A stretch of 64,000 nt of DNA, taken from assembly GCA_018263335.1 (NCBI GenBank), contig JADFCY010000010.1:1-64000 (forward strand), in the 5' to 3' direction. The notes below the pieces were generated by a model that saw only the letters and a list, made by a program, of their open reading frames with translations, was not told where the DNA came from and searched no databases. Positions 19,362 through 32,245 of this stretch are shown piece by piece; the stretch's first letter is position 1; every line of letters begins with the position of its first letter. Source of the DNA: Methanolinea sp. (lineage in GTDB: Archaea; Halobacteriota; Methanomicrobia; Methanomicrobiales; Methanospirillaceae). The translations under genes and the position numbers were made by a program.

Positions 19362-20495
19362 ATGAACGGGTCGTTCAAAATTGGTTCCATATTCGGCATT
19401 CCCATACTGCTGCACTGGACGTTTCTCGTGATCATCCCCCTCTTTGCATGGATCATAGGGAGCCAGATCGTCCTCACTGCAGAGCTCCTCTCGGATCTCT
19501 TCGGCGTCGCGATCGACCTGACGTACCTCACATCTGGATACAACCCCTACATCCTGGGAATCTTCGTCGCGCTCGCGCTCTTTGGTGGCGTCCTCGTCCA
19601 CGAGATCGCCCACTGCCTGGTTGCAAAAAGGATGGGAGTCCCCATCAACAGCATCACCCTCCTCATCTTCGGGGGAGTCTCGTCAATGGAAGAGAGCACT
19701 CCGGATCCAAAGGTGGAACTTCCGATGGCGCTCGTGGGACCGCTTACAAGCCTTGCGGTGGGGCTGATATGCACCGCACTCCTTTACCTGTCAAAAGCGA
19801 CTGTCACGGACCCGCCTCTTGCAGGGTTGCTCGTCTTCATCTTCGCGTACCTCGGGCTCCTCAACATATTCCTGTTCGCCTTCAACCTCCTGCCCGCCTT
19901 CCCTATGGACGGGGGAAGGGTGCTCCGGGCATACCTTGCAGGCAGGATGCCCCTTCACCGTGCCACCCGCATCGCGGCTGATGTCGGGAAAGTGTTTGCG
20001 GTGATCTTCGGCATATTCGGCGTCATATTCTTCTCTCCAATCCTGATCCTGATCGCGTTCTTCATTTACATCGGGGCAGGGCAGGAGTCCGCGGCGATCA
20101 AGTACAACTTCCTCTTAAAAGACGTGAACGTGGGGGATATCATGGCCAGGTCGGTAATGACCGTTCCTCCCACCATGCCGATCAGGGAGGTAATCGATCT
20201 CATGTACTCGACCAAGCACCTCGGGTTCCCGGTAATGGACCGAGGTTTCGTGGTGGGGATGATCACCCTTGCTGACGTGCACAAGATCCCGACTCTTGAC
20301 AGGGAAGCGATGCAGGTCCGGGACATCATGACGCGTGAAGTGATCGCGCTCTCTCCCCGATCACCGGTCATTGACGGGTTGCGGCTGATGTCGCGCTACA
20401 ATATCGGGCGGATACCCGTCATGGAAAACGATACCCTCGTCGGAATCATCACCCGGACGGATATCCTGAAGGTCATCGAGTTGAAGGAGATATAG
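19362..20495 (+). CDS. Site-2 protease family M50 metalloprotease with CBS pair
   Basis: A 377-residue membrane protein. The zinc-binding site is HEIAH at 80-84 within a transmembrane helix, and the third ligand is the Asp of NLLPAFPMDGG (175-185), as in SpoIVFB-type intramembrane proteases. About six hydrophobic helices fill residues 10-240. Two CBS domains follow (about 255-377; VMTVPPTMPIREVIDLM and VIALSPRSPVIDGLRLMSRY), which usually sense adenine nucleotides and gate the protease. Substrates are unknown. The 3' end overlaps the convergent radical SAM gene by 23 bases. Confidence 0.92.
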   Translation: MNGSFKIGSIFGIPILLHWTFLVIIPLFAWIIGSQIVLTAELLSDLFGVAIDLTYLTSGYNPYILGIFVALALFGGVLVHEIAHCLVAKRMGVPINSITLLIFGGVSSMEESTPDPKVELPMALVGPLTSLAVGLICTALLYLSKATVTDPPLAGLLVFIFAYLGLLNIFLFAFNLLPAFPMDGGRVLRAYLAGRMPLHRATRIAADVGKVFAVIFGIFGVIFFSPILILIAFFIYIGAGQESAAIKYNFLLKDVNVGDIMARSVMTVPPTMPIREVIDLMYSTKHLGFPVMDRGFVVGMITLADVHKIPTLDREAMQVRDIMTREVIALSPRSPVIDGLRLMSRYNIGRIPVMENDTLVGIITRTDILKVIELKEI

Positions 20496-22143
20496 AGAAC
20501 GAGAGCCAGGCATCGATGGGGGTTGGCCCGACGAAGGCCCGGAATTCATGCAGGTTCGAAAACGGTCTCCTTGCTGCAATCTTCCCCGCCATCTTTCTCC
20601 CCACGCCGGGTATCCAGGAGAGCGTCGTTACCGGGAGCATGTTGACGTCAACCGGAACAGGAAGCCCGGTCACTGATCTCATCCCATGGTCCACCACCAC
20701 GACGTCAATGACGGTTATCGGCCTCACAGGGGAGGGCACACCGACGAGCACCGGGTATGAACCCATCTGCCGGCCAAACGAGGGGACTCCCTGCTCCTCA
20801 ATTACCACCGAACGAAGGAGTGTTCCGAGAGGATACACCCTGCGGAGCATGGGGAGGTCAAATTCCTTCCTCACCTGCTCCTTGAAGGCGCGGAACTGCG
20901 CCTGGTGAACGCCGAGTGTGTTCTCCAGGAATGCCCTTGTCCCGTCAAACGGCATCAGCTGCCGGATATTCACCCTTCGGACCAGATTTCCTGATGCAAG
21001 CACCCCTGCAAGGAATTCCTGGTTCATCTCATACGTCCGGGTGGTCTCACCTGCAAGCCCCGCGATGAAGTTGAGGCCGGGAAGGAGGTGGGGGATGCCT
21101 TCCATTCGCGTCCCACCAGTTTCGTTGACAATCCGAATAGCCTCCATCACCTGCGATGGGCTGGCCTTCAGGTTGTTCTTCCGGATCACTTCGGGGTCCG
21201 CGGTCTCCATCCCGAACGCAGCGACGTCACCTGGCGTATGGTGTGCGACGATTGCACAAAGAGCGGCCCTGCTCTCGTCGGGGTGGCGCGCAATGGTGCC
21301 AGGATTGACGTTGTCTATGTGGAGCGTGTGAAGCCCGGGAGCAGCATCCCTTACTGAAGAGAAGAGCTCATCGATTCTCTCCGGGACTGGCGCCGGGTAT
21401 TCCTCTGCCATCGATGATCCATACACCAGTATGTCGGGCTGCCTGCCGAGGCGGAAGTGCCGTGCGCCGGCCGCGTAAAGCGATTCGACTTCGCTGGCAA
21501 TCCCCTCAACAGAACGGAATACGGGCGGACCGTAGAACGGTTCTGTGCAGAAAGAGCACCCCCCGGAATGTGCCCTCGAGCACCCTCGTGCCGTCTCGAT
21601 CTCGCACATTACCCATGGGAAGGATGGATGGTCGCGTATGACCGACGCCCCGGCAGCGGCCCAGGGGTCTTCCCGGCGATAATCGTGTGTCCCATGGGTC
21701 TTTCCTTCCCGGAGGAACGCATCGAGCGCGGACGCAGGAGATCCCGAGAGGAGGTGATCGAACCCGGAGACTTCTCCCTTTACTGCCTTCCGGCCGCCGC
21801 CAGGGGCATAGCCAAAGCCGATTGGCCCGGCAAGAAATGTTTCGGGGCGTCGGAGCTGCGCACCTATCAGGCGGATCTCGGTGAGTGATGCAGGGGTTCC
21901 TCCCAGATACTTCCCCGGAACAGTCACGCCCGCTATCATCACCACAAGGTCTGAGGCGTTCATCGCGGAGATGAGCCCGGCATCCTTCCTCACCTGGTCG
22001 ATTGTGAGGTACCCTGGTGAATAGCCATGGGATAAGAGGGCGCCTGTCACAGTCCTGATATAGGGTGAGATATACGGGGGGACGCCGAGACATGCAGGCT
22101 CGTCGACGTAGCCGTCCAGGACAAACGCGGACTTCCCGGTCAT
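20473..22143 (-). CDS. Radical SAM protein with C-terminal helix-hairpin-helix (COG1031 type)
   Basis: A 556-residue enzyme matching the archaeal COG1031 family: an N-terminal region with a B12-binding-like Rossmann character (about 1-120), then the radical SAM core. The Fe-S cluster Cys lie at 188, 196 and 199 (GCSRAHSGGCSFC), a CX7CX2C spacing instead of the common CX3CX2C. Later core blocks are HIDNVNPGTIARHPDES and FGMETADPEVIRKNN. The last about 60 residues form an HhH motif (TLSWIPGVGRKMAGKIAARRP), which suggests contact with nucleic acid. Substrate unknown; tRNA or DNA modification is the natural guess. It overlaps mptE by 4 bases. Confidence 0.87.
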   Translation of the reverse strand: MTGKSAFVLDGYVDEPACLGVPPYISPYIRTVTGALLSHGYSPGYLTIDQVRKDAGLISAMNASDLVVMIAGVTVPGKYLGGTPASLTEIRLIGAQLRRPETFLAGPIGFGYAPGGGRKAVKGEVSGFDHLLSGSPASALDAFLREGKTHGTHDYRREDPWAAAGASVIRDHPSFPWVMCEIETARGCSRAHSGGCSFCTEPFYGPPVFRSVEGIASEVESLYAAGARHFRLGRQPDILVYGSSMAEEYPAPVPERIDELFSSVRDAAPGLHTLHIDNVNPGTIARHPDESRAALCAIVAHHTPGDVAAFGMETADPEVIRKNNLKASPSQVMEAIRIVNETGGTRMEGIPHLLPGLNFIAGLAGETTRTYEMNQEFLAGVLASGNLVRRVNIRQLMPFDGTRAFLENTLGVHQAQFRAFKEQVRKEFDLPMLRRVYPLGTLLRSVVIEEQGVPSFGRQMGSYPVLVGVPSPVRPITVIDVVVVDHGMRSVTGLPVPVDVNMLPVTTLSWIPGVGRKMAGKIAARRPFSNLHEFRAFVGPTPIDAWLSFSISPSTR

Positions 22144-22754
22144 GGTTCAAGGAGAGAGAGGAGCTTTTTTGCCCAGAGGAGCTTGCCCCGCTTCATGTGA
22201 TCGACACGGGAATCCTCGAGGTCAAACCCAAGGATTGCAATAGAGGTGGCTCCAAGCGCATGTGCCGCGAAGACCGCGCGGTCCCCGTCGGTGAACCCGC
22301 CGAAGTTATGCACGTGGGGGAGAGGCCGACTCTGTGTCGTCCCCACGATGGGACCCGGGAACTTCGGGACCCAGTGCCGGAGCAGCGGGATGTTGTCCCC
22401 GTGCGCATGCACGACGACGATCGTCCCGTCCCTGTTCATCTCGATGAACTCATCGGTAGCCCCGTCAAGGTCCGTGAAGATGGCGTCAGGCCGTATGCCA
22501 TGTGAGAGGAGGACGAGAGAAGCCGCGTCAGCCGCAAAGACAGTCCCCTTCACACGCGAGATCTCGTTTTTGAGGCAGGGGGCATTCCCGCATACGCAGA
22601 TCTCATGGCCCCTGCAGGCCTCTTCGAGTAGGATGATATCGTCCCCAGGCAGCAGGTCTGAAAGGACTGCGGCCGCACGCTCGTCCTCCTCGCGGTCGAA
22701 CCCGAAATACTCGATAATCTCCTGGTAGACCGGTTCCCAGTCCTCAAAGTTCAT
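22140..22754 (-). CDS. mptE: 6-hydroxymethylpterin diphosphokinase MptE-like protein
   Basis: About 204 residues from ATG 22754 (MNFEDWEPVYQEI), preferred to an upstream in-frame ATG because this is the family start; it overlaps the upstream DHH gene by 11 bases. MptE transfers pyrophosphate to 6-hydroxymethyl-7,8-dihydropterin in tetrahydromethanopterin synthesis. Landmarks are CGNAPCLKNEI, AADAASLVLLSHGIRPDAIFTDLDG and VVHAHGDNIPLLRHWVP, then a sugar-kinase-like FGGFTDGDRAVFAAHALGA. The DLDG motif is the family's DUF115/MptE signature. Middle gene of a three-gene operon. Confidence 0.88.
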   Translation of the reverse strand: MNFEDWEPVYQEIIEYFGFDREEDERAAAVLSDLLPGDDIILLEEACRGHEICVCGNAPCLKNEISRVKGTVFAADAASLVLLSHGIRPDAIFTDLDGATDEFIEMNRDGTIVVVHAHGDNIPLLRHWVPKFPGPIVGTTQSRPLPHVHNFGGFTDGDRAVFAAHALGATSIAILGFDLEDSRVDHMKRGKLLWAKKLLSLLEP

Positions 22755-24207
22755 TCCCGGCCTCGGTGTCCAGGCCCACAAGGCCAGTGAACTTCTTGAG
22801 CAGCGGGTCCATGACAAGCGAGAGGAGCTCCTCCTTGTTCTTCACCCTGCGGAAATACAAAAGAGGGATGGTTGCGGCAGCCATGTTGGGGTGGCCTCCG
22901 GCATCGCCGATATCGCCGAATGCCTCCTCGAGGACGTTGCCGATGTGCAGCCGTATGTCCCGGTTCCTTGATGAAATGATGATGGCATCGTCAGATATGC
23001 CATAGACAAGCGCGGTATTCACACCCTCGAGAGATATGAGGAGGTCGGCCGCCTGGGGGAGAGAGTCGCGATTCCGGACAAAGCCGACATTTGCGAAGAG
23101 GTACCCGCTCTGGATGCGCCGGTTGCGGATGGCATTGCCGAGCACGTCAAGGGTCTCCTGCGAGAGGGAGGGGGACATGATCTGGTCGAGGAGATCAGAA
23201 TCAGTGAGAGGGAGGAGAAATGCAGCATTCGAGAGATCCTGAGGAGTGACGTTTCTTCGGAAGTCCCTCGTGTCAGAACGGATGCCGTAGAGGAGGCCGG
23301 TCGCGACGTTCTTGTCAACAGGGATATCGAGCTCCTGGAGATACTGGGAGAGGATGCTAGCAGTGGCGCCGATCCCGGGGCGGACGTCTACGAATGCCGC
23401 ACCTTCCAGGCCGTGCCCGTCCTGGTGGTGATCGATCACGATGTGAACCCGGGTTCTCGGCGAGAGTGTGTTATTCATTCCTGGCGCAGGGCAGTCGACG
23501 AGGGCGAGGTACGTGCAGTCCTGGATGGTCTGAGGCTCCATCTTCTCCATCCTGATATCCAGGAGATTCACCATGGTCCGGTTCTCCTGGTGACCGATGA
23601 TGCCGTCGTAGAATATCCTGCAGGTGAGTTTCTGTGGATTTGCATTCCCTGCGATTGCTGCGAGGGCCATGGCGCTTCCGATTGCGTCCGGGTCAGGGTT
23701 CTTGTGAGTGATGATGCCGAGCGTCCCCTCCCAGCTGGCGAGGAGATCGTGGAGCCTCTGCGAGAGCCTGCTGACGTGGAGACGGTTGACCTGGTTGATG
23801 GCGGCCCTCGCCACCACCTGCTGGGGATAGAGGACAAAGTCAGCCCCGGCGGCCTCGAGCATTCCTGCGCCAATGGGATCGAGCGCCCTTGCCACGATAT
23901 GCATCTGAGGGAGTTTCTGGCGGAGCGTCCGGACTGCAGCGAGGTTTGCCTGGTGATTCCCGGTGAGGACAAACGCAATCTCACATGTGGGAAGCCCAGA
24001 GAGGAATCCCGGGTCGCTGATGTCTCTGATCATGGCATCAAGGTTCTGGTCCCGGAGCTCCTTCACGCGTCCCTCGTCCCGGTCCAGCACGAGGACCCGT
24101 CCCTCTTTTCGCGACAACTCCGTGGCCACGTGATATCCGGTGCTCCCGCACCCGAGGACCGCGTATTTTACCCTCTCTCCGGTTCCATATCCGCCCGCCT
24201 CTGGCAT
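22744..24207 (-). CDS. DHH-DHHA1 phosphoesterase with N-terminal TrkA-N domain
   Basis: A 487-residue fusion. Residues about 14-140 are an NAD-binding RCK/TrkA-N Rossmann domain (VLGCGSTGYHVA, GxGxxG at 19-24; VLDRDEGRV). Residues about 155-480 are a DHH phosphoesterase: HKNPDPDAIGSAMAL, VDCPA, IDHHQDG and a C-terminal DHHA1 with GDAGGHPNMAAATIPL. Archaeal enzymes of this fold degrade nanoRNA or cyclic dinucleotides, and the Rossmann domain may sense NAD(H). The true start may lie a few codons further in (ERVKYAVLGCG). It heads the operon with mptE and the HhH radical SAM gene. Confidence 0.87.
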   Translation of the reverse strand: MPEAGGYGTGERVKYAVLGCGSTGYHVATELSRKEGRVLVLDRDEGRVKELRDQNLDAMIRDISDPGFLSGLPTCEIAFVLTGNHQANLAAVRTLRQKLPQMHIVARALDPIGAGMLEAAGADFVLYPQQVVARAAINQVNRLHVSRLSQRLHDLLASWEGTLGIITHKNPDPDAIGSAMALAAIAGNANPQKLTCRIFYDGIIGHQENRTMVNLLDIRMEKMEPQTIQDCTYLALVDCPAPGMNNTLSPRTRVHIVIDHHQDGHGLEGAAFVDVRPGIGATASILSQYLQELDIPVDKNVATGLLYGIRSDTRDFRRNVTPQDLSNAAFLLPLTDSDLLDQIMSPSLSQETLDVLGNAIRNRRIQSGYLFANVGFVRNRDSLPQAADLLISLEGVNTALVYGISDDAIIISSRNRDIRLHIGNVLEEAFGDIGDAGGHPNMAAATIPLLYFRRVKNKEELLSLVMDPLLKKFTGLVGLDTEAGNEL

Positions 24208-24531: not shown

Positions 24532-25359
24532 ATGAAGCGTTGTCCAGCCTCTCATCAGGCAAGGCGAAAGACCATTTTTCTGGCTGTGATTCTCATTGTG
24601 TGTAGTTATTTTTCCCTGGTGGGTCCGGCTGCGGGTGCCCCCATCACTGCATCCATCTCCACCAGCCCGTCAGATCACCTCCCAAAGACCGCCTCGGAAT
24701 ACGAGGAGGAGGGCAAGGCGCTGATGGCTCTCCATGACTGGGACGGACTCATCACGCTCGCAGGCGATGGTCTCTCTATTTATCCTGATGAAGCCGAACT
24801 GATGTGCCTGGAGGCGTATGCGCTCAGGAAGACCGGGCATTTCCAGGAGGCCGTGGACCTTCTCAACGTGGCGATACCTCTTGACCCGCGGCCGGCACGG
24901 TTTGCGAACAGGGGGTATGCATTCCTGGCGATGGGAAAGACTGACGATGCACTGGCTGACGCGGAGCAGGCAATCCAGCTCAATTCATCCTATTCTCCCG
25001 GAGAGGGATTAAAAGCCGAGACACTCCTTGCGATGGGGGACTATCCCGGGGCACACGCAGCGGCCGATGCCGCACTCGCCCTTGAGCCTGGGAACGCACA
25101 TTACTGGCACGTGAAAGGAAAAGTGCTGGCCGGGATGGGAGACTGCAGCGGGGCAATTGAATCGCTTCGGCGTTCCCTCTCAATTACGTCCGAGTATGAC
25201 ATGCCGTGGCCAGGGTTACCGAATGCGAGTGTGGACCTTGCGAAGGTGCAATCCGACTGCATGATACCGCAAGAATCAACCGCCCCGACTCAGGCGGCAC
25301 TCCCCTTCTTCTTGGTGACTGCCGCTTTATTGGTCGCGGCTGCAGTGAAGCGAAGATAG
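24532..25359 (+). CDS. Exported TPR-repeat protein with C-terminal membrane anchor
   Basis: A 275-residue protein. Residues about 10-38 form a signal peptide (KTIFLAVILIVCSYFSLVG...AGA), residues about 55-235 hold four to five tetratricopeptide repeats (for example EAELMCLEAYALRKTGHFQEA, ARFANRGYAFLAMGKTDDA, AHYWHVKGKVLAGMGDCSGA), and a C-terminal helix with KRR anchors it, placing the TPR domain outside. Such proteins mediate protein-protein contacts at the surface. TTTCTATAAG at about 24500-24509 is a box A about 25 bases before the ATG, so the mRNA is probably leaderless. Confidence 0.85.
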   Translation: MKRCPASHQARRKTIFLAVILIVCSYFSLVGPAAGAPITASISTSPSDHLPKTASEYEEEGKALMALHDWDGLITLAGDGLSIYPDEAELMCLEAYALRKTGHFQEAVDLLNVAIPLDPRPARFANRGYAFLAMGKTDDALADAEQAIQLNSSYSPGEGLKAETLLAMGDYPGAHAAADAALALEPGNAHYWHVKGKVLAGMGDCSGAIESLRRSLSITSEYDMPWPGLPNASVDLAKVQSDCMIPQESTAPTQAALPFFLVTAALLVAAAVKRR

Positions 25360-25506: not shown

Positions 25507-26394
25507 TTATGCCCCTATCTTCACCAGCATCTCTTCGAGGCTCGGATAGTGGGACTCGATCCGTTCCACGGCCCCTCCGGAGGTAACGATGGCATTCGAG
25601 ATCCTCCCCATCTCCTCGACGCTCGTCGCCTTTGCCCGGAAATACCCCCCATCCTTGACGTATGACGCAAGCCCTTCCACTTTTGTGATATCCCCTATTG
25701 TGAAATATATGAAATAGAATATCGAGCCGAACATCTCCCGAAGCTCCTGCATGCTGCCGAATGCGACACGCGCTCCCCTGCGGAGGATGAGGATCCTGTC
25801 ACAGATCGCCTCAACCTGGTAGAGGTTGTGGGCAGAGAGGACGATTGTCTTGCCGCGTTCCCGGAGATCTTTCAGGAAGTCGACGATGTGCCGAGAGGTC
25901 ATCGGGTCCAGTCCCGATGTCGCCTCGTCATAGATGAGGAGGGAGGGGTCGTGCATCAGGGACCGGGCGATCGCGGCCTTCCGTTTCATCCCCTTTGAAA
26001 ATTCGCCCATCTTCTTTCCGTTCGGCTCGAGTGCGAGCCATTCAAGAAGTTCCCTGCTCCTTGCTTTGATGGTCAACCGGTCCATCCCGTATATCTCTCC
26101 GAAGAACGCGAGGTATTCGTCCACCTTCATCGCTTCATAGAGGCGGGACTCCTCGGGGAGGTAGCCGGTCATCTGCTTCATCCCATCAGGATTCCGCAGG
26201 ATATCGACCCCGTCCACGACAAGTTCTCCGCTGGAGGGCTCAACGAGGCCCGCAAGGATCTTGAGAAGCGTGGTCTTTCCCGCCCCGTTGTGACCAATGA
26301 TCCCGAATATCTGCCCGCGGTCAAGATCGAAACTGACGTGGTCGAGGGCAGTGGTGGTGCCGTAGCACTTGGTGATATTGCGGGCAGCGATCAT
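25507..26394 (-). CDS. ABC transporter ATP-binding protein
   Basis: A 295-residue ATPase energising the two divergently transcribed permeases. Start at 26394 (MIAARNITKCYG) as expected for the family; upstream in-frame ATGs add non-homologous sequence. Motifs: Walker A GHNGAGKTT (about 37-45), Q-loop GYLPEESRLYEAM, an ABC signature read as EFSKGMKRKAAIAR, Walker B LLIYDEATSGLD and switch His in SAHNLYQVEAICD. It belongs to the NatA/CcmA-like exporter class. About 70 C-terminal residues form a regulatory extension. Shares a divergent promoter region with the fusion permease gene. Confidence 0.93.
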   Translation of the reverse strand: MIAARNITKCYGTTTALDHVSFDLDRGQIFGIIGHNGAGKTTLLKILAGLVEPSSGELVVDGVDILRNPDGMKQMTGYLPEESRLYEAMKVDEYLAFFGEIYGMDRLTIKARSRELLEWLALEPNGKKMGEFSKGMKRKAAIARSLMHDPSLLIYDEATSGLDPMTSRHIVDFLKDLRERGKTIVLSAHNLYQVEAICDRILILRRGARVAFGSMQELREMFGSIFYFIYFTIGDITKVEGLASYVKDGGYFRAKATSVEEMGRISNAIVTSGGAVERIESHYPSLEEMLVKIGA

Positions 26395-26433
26395 GGGTTT
26401 CTCGTCCGATTCCTCACAATTCCTCGACCTGCA

Positions 26434-26456
26434 AGATATTATAGGTACCGAACCTA
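26434..26456. promoter_or_regulatory. Divergent promoter and inverted repeat of the ABC operon
   Basis: AGATATTATAGG (26435-26444 region) reads as a TATA box on both strands and sits about 35-45 bases from each start codon. It overlaps TAGGT (26442-26446), five bases, ACCTA (26452-26456), an inverted repeat suitable for a dimeric regulator that would control ATPase and permeases together. Confidence 0.5.
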
Positions 26457-26476
26457 CCATAAAAGAGACACAAGGC

Positions 26477-28294
26477 GTGAACTTTTTGCTATTTCTCTCC
26501 CGGATTGGGACGCTTGCGCGGTGGGAGGTGAAGCGGGCCTTCGGAGTCATGGGAAAGGGGATGCTCCCCATGGCAGTCGTCCTCTTCGTCCTTCTCGTGG
26601 CTGCGACCGGCTTTGCCGCCGAGAGGGGCCTCCATCTGCAGGACGGCATCTATCGCCTGGGAGTCGATGACCGGGTCGTCGGGGAGATCTTCTCCGGGGA
26701 CGAACGGTTCACCATCACCATTGGCGATGGGAGGGATCTCTTCAGGGAGAGGGCCGCATACGATATCATTGTCATCGGCGGGCAGGTCTATGTCCATGAT
26801 ACCGAGCGCGGAAGGTCAGCGCTCAAGGCTCTTCAGAGGGATTACCAGCAGTACCTCGACTCCCTTTACAGCCTTCAGCAGGACCTTTTTGCCGCTTATC
26901 CCCTCTGGATAGACCTGCAGGAGGTAAAGAGCGAGCTCGACTTCTCTGCCACCCAGTCGGGGATGCAGATCTCGGTTGCCCCCTCATCCACTGCCCCACC
27001 GGTCCCAGAACGGCCCGTGGTTGAGATTGCCGAACCCGAACCTGGCGTGGCATTTTCAACTGAAGAACTCCGTCAGGGGCTCATCGAGTCATCGGTGCCG
27101 CAGAGCCAGCTTGCACGGTATTCCGACCTCGTAGGACCCGAAAGCCCGTTCGGGTCGTTCAGGACCCCGTCTCAACTCTCACCCCCGCTGCCATTTGACT
27201 CTATCATCCTTGTCTTCCTATTCATATTCCCCCTTTACTTCATGTCCCAGTTTTCCATGATGAGCATCATGCATGAACGACTGGAGAGGAAAGGCGAAAT
27301 ACTCCTCTCAACGCCTGCGGGGGCACCGGCGATCATTGTTGGAAAGGCACTCCCGTACTTCATCGGGATGGTGGCAATATCCGCCGGGATTGCGCTCTGG
27401 CTCTCCGCCCCCCTCATTATCCTCCTTCCCCTCCTCCCCGTCATCCTCTTCTTCCTCGCAAACGCCCTTATCATCGGGATGATCGCAAGGAGCTTCAAAG
27501 AGCTCTCCTTCATCTCAATCTTCTTTTCAACAGTCGCTACCTCGTACCTCTTCTTTCCAAGCATCTTTGCAAACGTCCATGTCATCAGCCTCGTCTCACC
27601 CCTGACCCTGATCGTCCTTTCACTCCAGGGAGAGACTTACACGATCAGCCAGTACTTCTTCTCCACTTCGCTCTTCTTCCTCACAAGCGCCGTACTCTTC
27701 TATGTCGGGATCGCAAACTTCCGCGAAGAGAGGCTCTTTTCACAGGCCGGCATCTTTCGCAGAGTGCGAGAGTTCGTCTCGACCTCGCTCTCTTCCCGGC
27801 ACCCCTGGGCCTCCCTTTTTGTCGTCAATGCACTTGTCGTGCCGTTTGTATTTATGGTCCAGATGCTCCTCCTCGTCCTCTTCTTCAACCTGCCCATGCC
27901 TCTCTCGCTGATCCTTTTGATTGTCTCCGCCGCGCTCGTCGAGGAGCTCGCAAAGTCTGTCGGTATCTGCACCTTTCTCCTCGATACACCCTCCCGGTGG
28001 TCCTGGGCGAAGGTGGTAATCGGGTCTGCTGTCACCGCTGCTGCCTTCCTCTTTGCCGAGAAACTTCTCCTCCTGGTCACACTGACACAGGTCACAGAGA
28101 GTGTGTTTGGAAGTATCCTCTTTCTCTCCTCCGGAGTCCTTGTCTTCCCCTTCCTCCTCCACTTCACGGGCGTGCTCTGCGTGGCTGCTCTCGTGCGGCA
28201 CAACGGTGCGAAGGGGTATATTCCCGGCATCCTGATTGCAACTCTCGTCCACTGCATCTATAACGGATATTTCTTCCTGGGGTGGCTGTCGTGA
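26477..28294 (+). CDS. ABC-2 permease fused to a PrsW-like intramembrane protease domain
   Basis: About 605 residues from GTG 26477, chosen because the N-terminal permease helix starts there and the earlier in-frame ATG lies inside the divergent ATPase gene. Residues 1-440 are an ABC-2 permease: one N-terminal helix, a long extracytoplasmic loop (about 50-235), then about six helices with PLYFMSQFSMMSIMHERLERKGEILLSTPAG. Residues 455-605 are a PrsW-like domain with all polar motifs: EExxK at 489-493 (EELAK), FxxxE at 524-528, His562 and HxxxN at 592-596 (HCIYN), in separate helices. Fusion of exporter and protease in one chain is unusual; processing of a precursor or signalling factor coupled to export is a hypothesis. 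Confidence 0.82.
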   Translation: MNFLLFLSRIGTLARWEVKRAFGVMGKGMLPMAVVLFVLLVAATGFAAERGLHLQDGIYRLGVDDRVVGEIFSGDERFTITIGDGRDLFRERAAYDIIVIGGQVYVHDTERGRSALKALQRDYQQYLDSLYSLQQDLFAAYPLWIDLQEVKSELDFSATQSGMQISVAPSSTAPPVPERPVVEIAEPEPGVAFSTEELRQGLIESSVPQSQLARYSDLVGPESPFGSFRTPSQLSPPLPFDSIILVFLFIFPLYFMSQFSMMSIMHERLERKGEILLSTPAGAPAIIVGKALPYFIGMVAISAGIALWLSAPLIILLPLLPVILFFLANALIIGMIARSFKELSFISIFFSTVATSYLFFPSIFANVHVISLVSPLTLIVLSLQGETYTISQYFFSTSLFFLTSAVLFYVGIANFREERLFSQAGIFRRVREFVSTSLSSRHPWASLFVVNALVVPFVFMVQMLLLVLFFNLPMPLSLILLIVSAALVEELAKSVGICTFLLDTPSRWSWAKVVIGSAVTAAAFLFAEKLLLLVTLTQVTESVFGSILFLSSGVLVFPFLLHFTGVLCVAALVRHNGAKGYIPGILIATLVHCIYNGYFFLGWLS

Positions 28295-29370
28295 AGGCAA
28301 GGAACATTGCACTTGTGATGAAGAAGGATCTCCGGGGGCTTGGAAGAGAGAGGACGATAGTCCTTGCCATCCTGCTTCAGCTCTTTGTTGCCCTCTTCTC
28401 CTCGTTTTTGATGGTCGGCCTCACCTCGATGTACGACCCCTCATCCCTTGCCAGGTTCTCGGGGGTGAAATACCAGGTCGCATACGTTGGCGAGCCATCT
28501 GATCTCGAGGAACTCCTGAATAACAGCGGCCAGTTCCGGGTCTACCCTATGGACCTCTCGACCGCGGTCGCCGCGCTCGGAGAACGAAAACTCTCTGCAG
28601 TGATCTACATACCCCCCACACCGAAGGATGCCGGGGACCCGGTCAAGATCACCCTTTACAGCATTCAGAACGATATCCAGTCCACCATCGTCAACGTGAA
28701 GTTAAAGGAGGTCTTCCTGGACTACGAAGAGGAGCTTCGCCGTGTCCGCTCGGAGAGACTCGATCTCCTCCCAGTCTCCCTGGAATTCCCGGAAAGCCGG
28801 TCAGGCCCGGGCTTCTATGAATTCATCTATGGCCTGCTAATCCCGCTCCTCCTCTTCATGCCGGCTATCATCTCCGCCGCGCTCATCATCGATCTTGTCA
28901 CCGAAGAGTACCAGCACCACACCCTTGAGACACTTCTCTCCACCCCGATGACCATGGCTGAGGTGGTGTGGGGAAAGATCGCCGCCTGCATCATCATTGT
29001 CCCTCTCCAGGCAGGATCCTGGCTTCTCCTCCTGACACTCAACCGCATCCCCATCGCACACATCCCGCACATTCTTGCCCAGGTTCTCTCATTCTCACTT
29101 ATCCTGGTGCTGATCGGTGCCCTCACCGCCCTCTACTACAGGGAGAGGACTGCGGCGCAGTTCATCTTCTCTACTGCCGTCGTGGTGTTGATGCTGATCG
29201 TGCTCGCATTTCCCTACAACCCACTGAACCTCATTGCACTGCTTGCAACAGGCTTGCCAGTGCCCGAACAATGGGGCATCCTTGGGGGGACACTTATTCT
29301 CTGCGGCGGGCTTGGCATCCTCACCCACCTGTATTCGGGGAGGGTCTCCACTCGGGCACCGGGAGAGTAG
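28291..29370 (+). CDS. ABC-2 type transporter permease (second subunit)
   Basis: About 359 residues from GTG 28291, which overlaps the previous stop as GTGA. NatB-like layout: one N-terminal helix (about 22-45), a large outer loop (about 50-175), then five to six helices. Helix-loop PAIISAALIIDLVTEEYQHHTLETLLSTPMTMAEVVWGK is the diagnostic ABC-2 segment that touches the ATPase. It forms the heterodimeric channel with the fusion permease. Ends AG-rich with RVSTRAPGE in the cytoplasm. Substrate unknown. Confidence 0.9.
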   Translation: MKARNIALVMKKDLRGLGRERTIVLAILLQLFVALFSSFLMVGLTSMYDPSSLARFSGVKYQVAYVGEPSDLEELLNNSGQFRVYPMDLSTAVAALGERKLSAVIYIPPTPKDAGDPVKITLYSIQNDIQSTIVNVKLKEVFLDYEEELRRVRSERLDLLPVSLEFPESRSGPGFYEFIYGLLIPLLLFMPAIISAALIIDLVTEEYQHHTLETLLSTPMTMAEVVWGKIAACIIIVPLQAGSWLLLLTLNRIPIAHIPHILAQVLSFSLILVLIGALTALYYRERTAAQFIFSTAVVVLMLIVLAFPYNPLNLIALLATGLPVPEQWGILGGTLILCGGLGILTHLYSGRVSTRAPGE

Positions 29371-30331: not shown

Positions 30332-32245
30332 ATGGCTGCGTCCTCCCCTCTCTCAAGACTCTCCCTTCGTTCTTCTCTCATACTGTGTATCACCGCCATC
30401 ATCCTCATTGTGATCATGTTCCTGATGGCCGCCGCGTATGCACAGGCCCATTCATGGACTGTCCGGCAGGACCACGAGCAGGCGCTCTTCACAGAGATGT
30501 ACCTCAAAGAGTCGATCCTTCTCGCTGACAGGGGGTTGAGCCTCTACGACAGCACGCTTGATTCCCGGATGGAGGAGGCATTCTCAGGATACCTCTCGGC
30601 ATATCGTGCATCAGGAGGTGACATCAGCCGAATGGACCTGCCTACGGTGCGGGACGCCCTTGGTGCCGACTTTCGGGGCCAGCTCGACCTCTACATCATT
30701 AACGAGAGCGGGGTTATTGTCGCGTCGACGGTCCCCGAAGTAATGTACCTCGATTTCAAGAATTACCCCGAATTTTTCCGTTCCATCACACGTATCCGGG
30801 AAGGCGATGAATTCGTGGCTGACAGGGTTGTCCGCTCTGTCATGAATACGTCGGAAGGTACCGTCTCCGGGCAGCTCCGGAAATTTGCCTTTTTCCCGAC
30901 TCCCGATCACCGCTACCTCCTTGAGATGGGACTTGTCATGGAGGGATTCGAGAACCAGCGGTCGGAACTCTCCTACGTCGAGGTGACAAGACGCATACAG
31001 GAGATGAACCCCTCAATCGAACTGATACGGATCTTTGACGTGAATGGAAATCTCCTCCTGGAACGCGGGGTCAACCCCCACACGGGCGTAAACCAGACCC
31101 TCATTGGAGAGATCTTTACGACCGGCAGAGACATGGAGATCCCGGGGCAGGATGGGAACAGGCGCCTCCACTACATCTTTATCGACCTTCGCGAGTCATC
31201 TACCGCGTCTGATATGAGCCTGGTCGCGGAGATAACATACACTCAGGAACCATTGCGCAGGGTGCTCTCACAGATACTCATCTATTACACTCTCATTGGA
31301 TTCATTGCCGTGGTGATGGGCATCACCATGGCGTACGTCATCGCCCGGTTTCTCACCACCCCTATCACTGAGATCCTCGAAGACGTCAGTAAAATTGCAG
31401 AGGGGGACCTTGGGCATACCATCCGAAGCATGCCTAACCCAGAATTCCGGCGGCTGGAAGAGAGCATCAACATGATGATCGGCAAGATACAGCAGTTCTC
31501 CCAGGAGATCGAACGGGAAAAGGCAGAGATCAGGATCGCCGCCGAGATACAGAGGACTTTTTTACCAAGAGAAATTCCGGAATCTGCAAGGTTCGAAATT
31601 GCTGCCATGAATATCCCTGCGCAGGAGGTGGGTGGCGACTTCTATGACTTCATCTCTTTAGACGAGCGGAGCCTTGGGCTGGTCATCGCAGATGTTGCGG
31701 GGAAAGGGATCCCCGCCGCACTCTTCATGGCCCTCTCCCGCTCCATACTCCGTGCAATCGCGACTGCCGACCAGCGCGTGGAAGAGACGATAGAGGAATC
31801 AAACAGCCTGATCGCAGCCGATGCTGCCGCAGGGATGTTCGTGACACTCTTTTACTGCATCCTTGACAGGGAGACCGGAGAAGCCATGTATGTGAATGCC
31901 GGCCACAACCCCCCGCTGCATTACTCCTGGAAGGAGAACAGGCTGCGCACCCTCCTCCCAACCGGGATGGCAATGGGTGTGATGCCGGATTTGAGTTACT
32001 CGGTCGGACACTTCACCCTTGACACGGGGGACTTGCTCGTTCTCTATACCGACGGGGTGACAGAGGCATTCAACCAGAATGGCGAAGAGTTTGGAGAAGA
32101 GAGGCTCATGAATGCAGTGTATGCATCAAGGGACATGAGTGCCGGGGAGATCCTCGATGCCATTTTCAGGCAGGTGACGGGGTTTACCGGGGGTGCGATG
32201 CAGTCCGACGACATCACGCTGGTAATCGTCAGGTGCAGGAAATGA
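30332..32245 (+). CDS. Membrane sensor phosphatase: Cache-like domain, HAMP, SpoIIE/PP2C
   Basis: A 637-residue receptor-type phosphatase. A transmembrane helix (about 16-37), an extracytoplasmic sensor of about 270 residues of Cache type, a second helix (about 311-333), a HAMP region (ARFLTTPITEILEDVSKIAEGDLG, about 337-360), a linker coiled coil with EIEREKAEIRIAAEIQRTFLP, and a SpoIIE-like PP2C domain (about 405-637). Catalytic Asp pairs are seen in GGDFYDFI, VIADVAGKGIPAALFMA and YTDGVTEAFN. In bacteria these enzymes dephosphorylate STAS antagonist proteins; archaea lack sigma factors, so the output is unknown. No STAS partner lies nearby. Confidence 0.9.
   Translation: MAASSPLSRLSLRSSLILCITAIILIVIMFLMAAAYAQAHSWTVRQDHEQALFTEMYLKESILLADRGLSLYDSTLDSRMEEAFSGYLSAYRASGGDISRMDLPTVRDALGADFRGQLDLYIINESGVIVASTVPEVMYLDFKNYPEFFRSITRIREGDEFVADRVVRSVMNTSEGTVSGQLRKFAFFPTPDHRYLLEMGLVMEGFENQRSELSYVEVTRRIQEMNPSIELIRIFDVNGNLLLERGVNPHTGVNQTLIGEIFTTGRDMEIPGQDGNRRLHYIFIDLRESSTASDMSLVAEITYTQEPLRRVLSQILIYYTLIGFIAVVMGITMAYVIARFLTTPITEILEDVSKIAEGDLGHTIRSMPNPEFRRLEESINMMIGKIQQFSQEIEREKAEIRIAAEIQRTFLPREIPESARFEIAAMNIPAQEVGGDFYDFISLDERSLGLVIADVAGKGIPAALFMALSRSILRAIATADQRVEETIEESNSLIAADAAAGMFVTLFYCILDRETGEAMYVNAGHNPPLHYSWKENRLRTLLPTGMAMGVMPDLSYSVGHFTLDTGDLLVLYTDGVTEAFNQNGEEFGEERLMNAVYASRDMSAGEILDAIFRQVTGFTGGAMQSDDITLVIVRCRK

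Follow-up and report, generated by a model that had tools for sequence, protein, structure and literature searches.

An archaeal ABC-2 exporter module in which one permease is fused to a predicted PrsW-type intramembrane protease domain

Results

Gene content of the module

The window, that is, the whole stretch of DNA that was analysed (64,000 nucleotides of a Methanolinea sp. contig), contains a three-gene module at positions 25507-29370. On the minus strand, 25507-26394 encodes a 295-aa ABC-2 exporter ATPase of the DrrA/GldA/NatA type (PF00005, E 2.6e-30), whose translation displays the Walker A GHNGAGKTT, the signature FSKGMKRK, the Walker B LLIYDEAT and the H-loop SAHN. Its best partial NCBIfam matches, TIGR01188 and TIGR03522, are both under cut-off. 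Reading frames and start codons place this gene in divergent orientation to 26477-28294 on the plus strand, which starts with GTG and codes for a protein of 605 aa. This protein comprises a permease part (residues 1-413, 26477-27715), made of one helix, an outside domain of about 190 residues and five helices, and a predicted PrsW-type protease domain (residues ~444-600, 27806-28276). The latter contains, on the same strand, EELAK (residues 489-493, 27941-27955), FLFAE (residues 524-528, 28046-28060), H562 (28160-28162) and HCIYN (residues 592-596, 28250-28264). The second ABC-2 permease gene occupies 28291-29370 of the plus strand (PF12698, E 9.1e-15). Its most likely predicted start is the GTG at 28291, which agrees with the N-terminus consensus of the relatives of this permease and shares GTGA (28291-28294) with the stop of the fused gene.

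Downstream of the module lie genes for an RDD protein (PF06271, 29524-30162) and for a HAMP and SpoIIE-type phosphatase (30332-32245). A previous sequence-only reading of this DNA had pointed to the four motifs, the divergent ATPase gene, the GTGA overlap and the RDD and receptor phosphatase genes just downstream. The motifs are exact in the translation of the fused protein, the strand and the overlap are as described, and both downstream products match the respective Pfam domains.

The association of PF00005 with PF12698, that is, an ATPase and ABC-2 permeases in one module, is that of an ABC-2 exporter. For the permease part of the fused protein, this notion is supported by its relatives, 42 of 52 of which match PF12698 (ABC2_membrane_3). 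Moreover, a weak alignment that covers the E..LLSTP segment links its core (residues 263-387) to the ABC-2 core of the second permease. No relative of the fused protein was found by sequence among PDB sequences, and the best solved-structure match of its full-length model is a mycobacterial ABC-2 efflux pump (E 0.13, probability 0.97).

The C-terminal domain belongs to the PrsW branch

By itself, the fused protein of the window matches no Pfam and no NCBIfam model, PF13367 included, which stays below its cut-off. Its assignment to PrsW depends on its relatives, which do match profiles. The Pfam comparison proposed in the sequence-only reading thus gave a positive answer for the relatives and a negative one for the window protein alone. 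PF13367 passes the gathering cut-off in fused proteins of the order and of the phylum, and 17 of 42 isolated C-terminal domains match it (best E 2.9e-9), with a single weak Rce1-like match in the same set. In searches of whole genomes, PF13367 exceeds its cut-off at the fused-gene locus in several of them, such as G001, G006, G012, G013, G182, G202, G216 and G225.

Profile-profile comparison by hhalign gave 81% (P 1.2e-5) for the C-terminal domain against stand-alone PrsW proteins of the same phylum, with EExxK, FxxxE, the His and HxxxN superposed. The comparison with CPBP yielded 1.4%, and the control against the second permease, an ABC-2 protein, 0.2%. The predicted model of the domain (pLDDT 92, pTM 0.87) retrieves the gamma-secretase subunit APH-1 first (probability 0.85, TM 0.55) and an archaeal Rce1 in fifth place, with weak E-values of 0.9 and 1.8, respectively. 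PrsW, APH-1 and the CAAX proteases form one superfamily (PMC4602095), and Rce1 / CPBP proteins (PF02517) share its fold core. However, the EExxxR and FxxxH motifs of this last group are absent from the domain, which has EExxK and FxxxE instead. An assignment to CPBP is ruled out by these motif types and by the hhalign value. Hence, of the "PrsW/CPBP class" proposed earlier, the PrsW half is borne out by profiles, motifs and fold, and the CPBP half has to be dropped. At the family level, comparative sequence analysis makes it clear that the 605-aa protein is an ABC-2 permease fused to a PrsW-type domain.

Conservation of the motif set

The near homologues considered here are 75 distinct sequences from loci fetched within the order, and in all of them E489, E490, K493, F524, E528, H562, H592 and N596 are invariant. 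The 34 distant homologues retain E489, E490, K493, E528, H562 and H592 without exception; F524 is replaced once by Y, and N596 is N in 31 and D in three, D being the classical PrsW letter at this position. The features of the PrsW family (PF13367, MEROPS M82) are thereby found in order on four consecutive helices: EExxK within a membrane helix (75/75 near and 34/34 distant sequences), FxxxE on the next helix (E528 always, F524 in all but one), an additional His on the helix preceding the last core helix (H562, 109/109), and HxxxN/D on the last core helix (H592 in 109/109; N596 in 106 and D in three). PrsW proteins have the lone His, whereas type II CAAX proteases lack it (PMC4602095). In comparison with the known family, the domain described here is highly divergent in sequence and sits behind an ABC-2 permease, and its proteolytic activity is a prediction.

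Shuffling the C-terminal 166 residues 200,000 times never produced the ordered motif set, and none of the 1,159 open frames of related loci carries it outside the fused permease family. Both results indicate that the order of the motifs is beyond chance. The sequence-only reading had named a lack of profile matches and unconserved motifs as grounds for abandoning it; instead, relatives match PF13367 and the motifs are kept in 109 homologues. The view that the C-terminal part consists of ordinary ABC-2 helices with accidental motifs can draw on the failure of the window protein alone to match a PrsW profile. It is contradicted by the conservation, profile and shuffle tests, which refute it, and we regard it as extremely improbable.

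Distribution and gene neighborhood

The three-gene module is present in 121 of 149 genomes of the class. A profile built from 52 members detects the fused protein in 146 of 295 genomes of the phylum, the one phylum within which distant relatives were sought. The closest relatives found belong to Methanolinea-like MAGs of Methanoregulaceae, and the ATPase, the fused permease and the second permease occur together in nearly all of the 34 distant loci. The ATPase gene is divergent in methanogens and co-directional in most GC-rich loci. One of these GC-rich loci is haloarchaeal, as judged by a 51.6% match to Haladaptatus. A Haladaptatus salinisoli plasmid carries the entire module (L215, 7108-10887) under the annotation of plain ABC transporter genes, the fused protein being labelled only 'ABC transporter permease subunit'. 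Among 72,556 plasmids searched in translation, this haloarchaeal copy was the only one found. On the other hand, the module is missing from several genera, including all sampled members of g23 and most of g4, which indicates that it is dispensable.

Besides the three module genes, no gene is conserved beside the module across families, and no cargo or substrate gene shared across lineages was found there. The earlier suggestion that the RDD and phosphatase genes belong with the module is not upheld by the neighborhood comparison: a single family has the RDD gene next to it, and the phosphatase gene is a neighbor in the closest relatives alone. The RDD, phosphatase and TPR genes are therefore ruled out as module parts, since their neighborhood is not conserved. 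A link to archaeosortase-type anchoring of surface proteins is not favoured either, because archaeosortase A is encoded in 148 of 149 genomes, including genera without the module, and its presence does not track that of the module.

Four of the five Methanosarcinales-like loci have a gene for a DUF11/BatD surface protein within 5-23 nt behind the module. At L152 (11065-13329), and with matching genes at L153, L155 and L156, this DUF11/BatD-type gene and one for a small membrane protein come after the second permease gene with hardly a gap. The surface protein is a possible clade-specific partner or substrate of the module.

Predicted topology of the protease domain

In near and distant relatives, K and R are abundant in the linker 414-443 and in the loops 501-513 and 574-580, and almost lacking from the loops 471-476 and 537-555. 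Under the positive-inside rule, this pattern predicts that the protease domain enters the membrane from the cytosol and ends outside. From the same counts we infer that E528 and H562 occupy the outer membrane half, with E489, E490 and H592 near the middle, so that proteolysis should take place on the exit side. Such a position would agree with the site-1 role of PrsW.

Discussion

In this study, we describe an archaeal module whose ATPase, two permeases and complete PrsW motif set, conserved across a phylum, can be read directly in the sequence. We propose, with a probability of roughly 0.55, that it is an ABC-2 exporter encoded by three genes, with a PrsW-type metalloprotease domain on the first permease, and that cutting and ATP-driven release are coupled in it. 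In this model, two ATPase subunits would drive a heterodimer of the two permeases, and the complex would take up hydrophobic peptides from the membrane. Candidate substrates are left-over signal peptides, lipoprotein leaders and stubs of membrane proteins. Their cleavage and ATP-driven outward release would be joined in one machine.

The coupling of export to processing has a good functional precedent. In Staphylococcus aureus, Eep and EcsAB make and export leader-derived peptides, and both are needed for release (PMC7157817). Moreover, loss or inactivation of Ecs is reported to inhibit intramembrane proteolysis (PMC2996298). The EcsAB/PptAB exporters and the Eep/RasP proteases thus resemble the module in that an ABC exporter and an intramembrane protease are jointly required for peptide processing and export (PMC7157817). 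However, they are separate proteins of Gram-positive bacteria, and Eep is a site-2 (M50) protease rather than a PrsW protein. We liken EcsAB to the module as a functional analogue only; by this analogy, one archaeal protein may do the work of a separate Eep/RasP protease and, as part of the complex, of an EcsAB/PptAB exporter.

One form of ABC-2 permease with a C-terminal intramembrane protease is already on record in NCBIfam: the family NF041647, named ABC transporter permease subunit/CPBP intramembrane protease. In this family, a CPBP-branch protease is attached to the other type of permease. Indeed, the NF041647 permease half resembles the second permease of the window, residues 7-240 of which match it with 53.5 bits, below the curated cut-off (435 bits). 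The fused protein does not match this model (ABC_perm_CPBP), and none of 41 genomes of the phylum has an NF041647 match over the cut-off. The PrsW version is a separate form of permease-protease fusion, and literature searches retrieved no description of it.

The known role of PrsW suggests a different function. In Bacillus subtilis, PrsW cuts the anti-sigma factor RsiW at site 1 (PMC4602095, PMC3498285), and the fused domain may likewise cut a membrane regulator or a surface protein, with the ABC part as a sensor or gate instead of an exporter. The predicted active site in the outer half of the membrane would suit such a regulated protease, but the module retains all of its exporter parts and has no conserved regulator gene next to it. 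To our knowledge, moreover, ECF sigma/anti-sigma pairs are absent from Archaea. We consider this explanation unlikely. A somewhat lower likelihood is given to the original proposal of the sequence-only reading, a dedicated exporter whose single type of peptide cargo (bacteriocin-like, signal or surface) is matured by the PrsW domain. The DUF11/BatD gene in the Methanosarcinales-like loci speaks for it, as does the proposal that PrsW domains of polymorphic toxin systems cut polypeptides and pass them through the membrane (PMC3482391). Those PrsW domains are fused to toxins, and the accessible part of that work describes no ABC permease or ATPase in the release system (PMC3482391). The lack of a cargo gene common to the lineages argues against a dedicated exporter, and so does the single copy that most genomes of the order have, a pattern not expected of a strain-specific peptide system.

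Improbable, although less so than accidental motifs in ordinary helices, is a non-catalytic role of the C-terminal domain in structure or substrate binding. Its best fold match, APH-1, belongs to the superfamily without being the catalytic subunit of gamma-secretase. Nevertheless, all 109 homologues of the fused protein keep the two glutamates, the lysine, E528 and the two histidines. APH-1 has lost the glutamates, which sets it apart from the domain described here.

Returning to the coupled exporter, its single-copy state, wide occurrence and lack of a conserved neighbor gene favor a housekeeping role in the clearance or maturation of peptides, which on these genomic grounds appears more likely than the export of one dedicated peptide. 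We tentatively extend this notion, at slightly less than even odds, to an ancient, phylum-wide housekeeping machine that would cut and export, uniting an ABC-2 subunit and an exit-side PrsW domain in one polypeptide and clearing or maturing membrane peptides. In the same guarded terms, such a machine may have been overlooked because public annotation calls the fused protein a plain permease. The recurrence of the combined protein across an archaeal phylum suggests, at the level of sequence comparison, that the cutting and exporting of small membrane peptides are physically coupled. If true, the fusion would provide direct evidence for a single process that comprises both export and intramembrane proteolysis; so far, this unity has been deduced from mutants of separate Gram-positive proteins (PMC7157817, PMC2996298). 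Most archaeal membrane proteases, including PrsW-like and CAAX-type enzymes, are described as having unknown functions and targets (PMC9263693, PMC4343526), and the module offers a possible explanation for the removal of signal-peptide remnants and membrane stubs in archaea. A genetic test is tractable, given that the haloarchaeal record holds a copy and model haloarchaea can be mutated.

Additional observations concern the same genome. Outside the window, contig 22 of the genome (G000, 161298-161831, L113) encodes a PrsW protein that stands alone, is about 230 aa long and matches PF13367 strongly; the fused copy is thus not the sole PrsW of the organism. Within the window, 24532-25359 encodes a TPR protein with a C-terminal hydrophobic stretch, present only in the closest relatives. 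This protein evolves fast, with 62-76% identity where neighboring genes show about 90% or more. Further upstream, a block of minus-strand genes (20473-24207) adjoins a tRNA-Lys gene, and in many genomes of the order one gene of this region (22744-24207) keeps its place close to the module, an association of synteny only.
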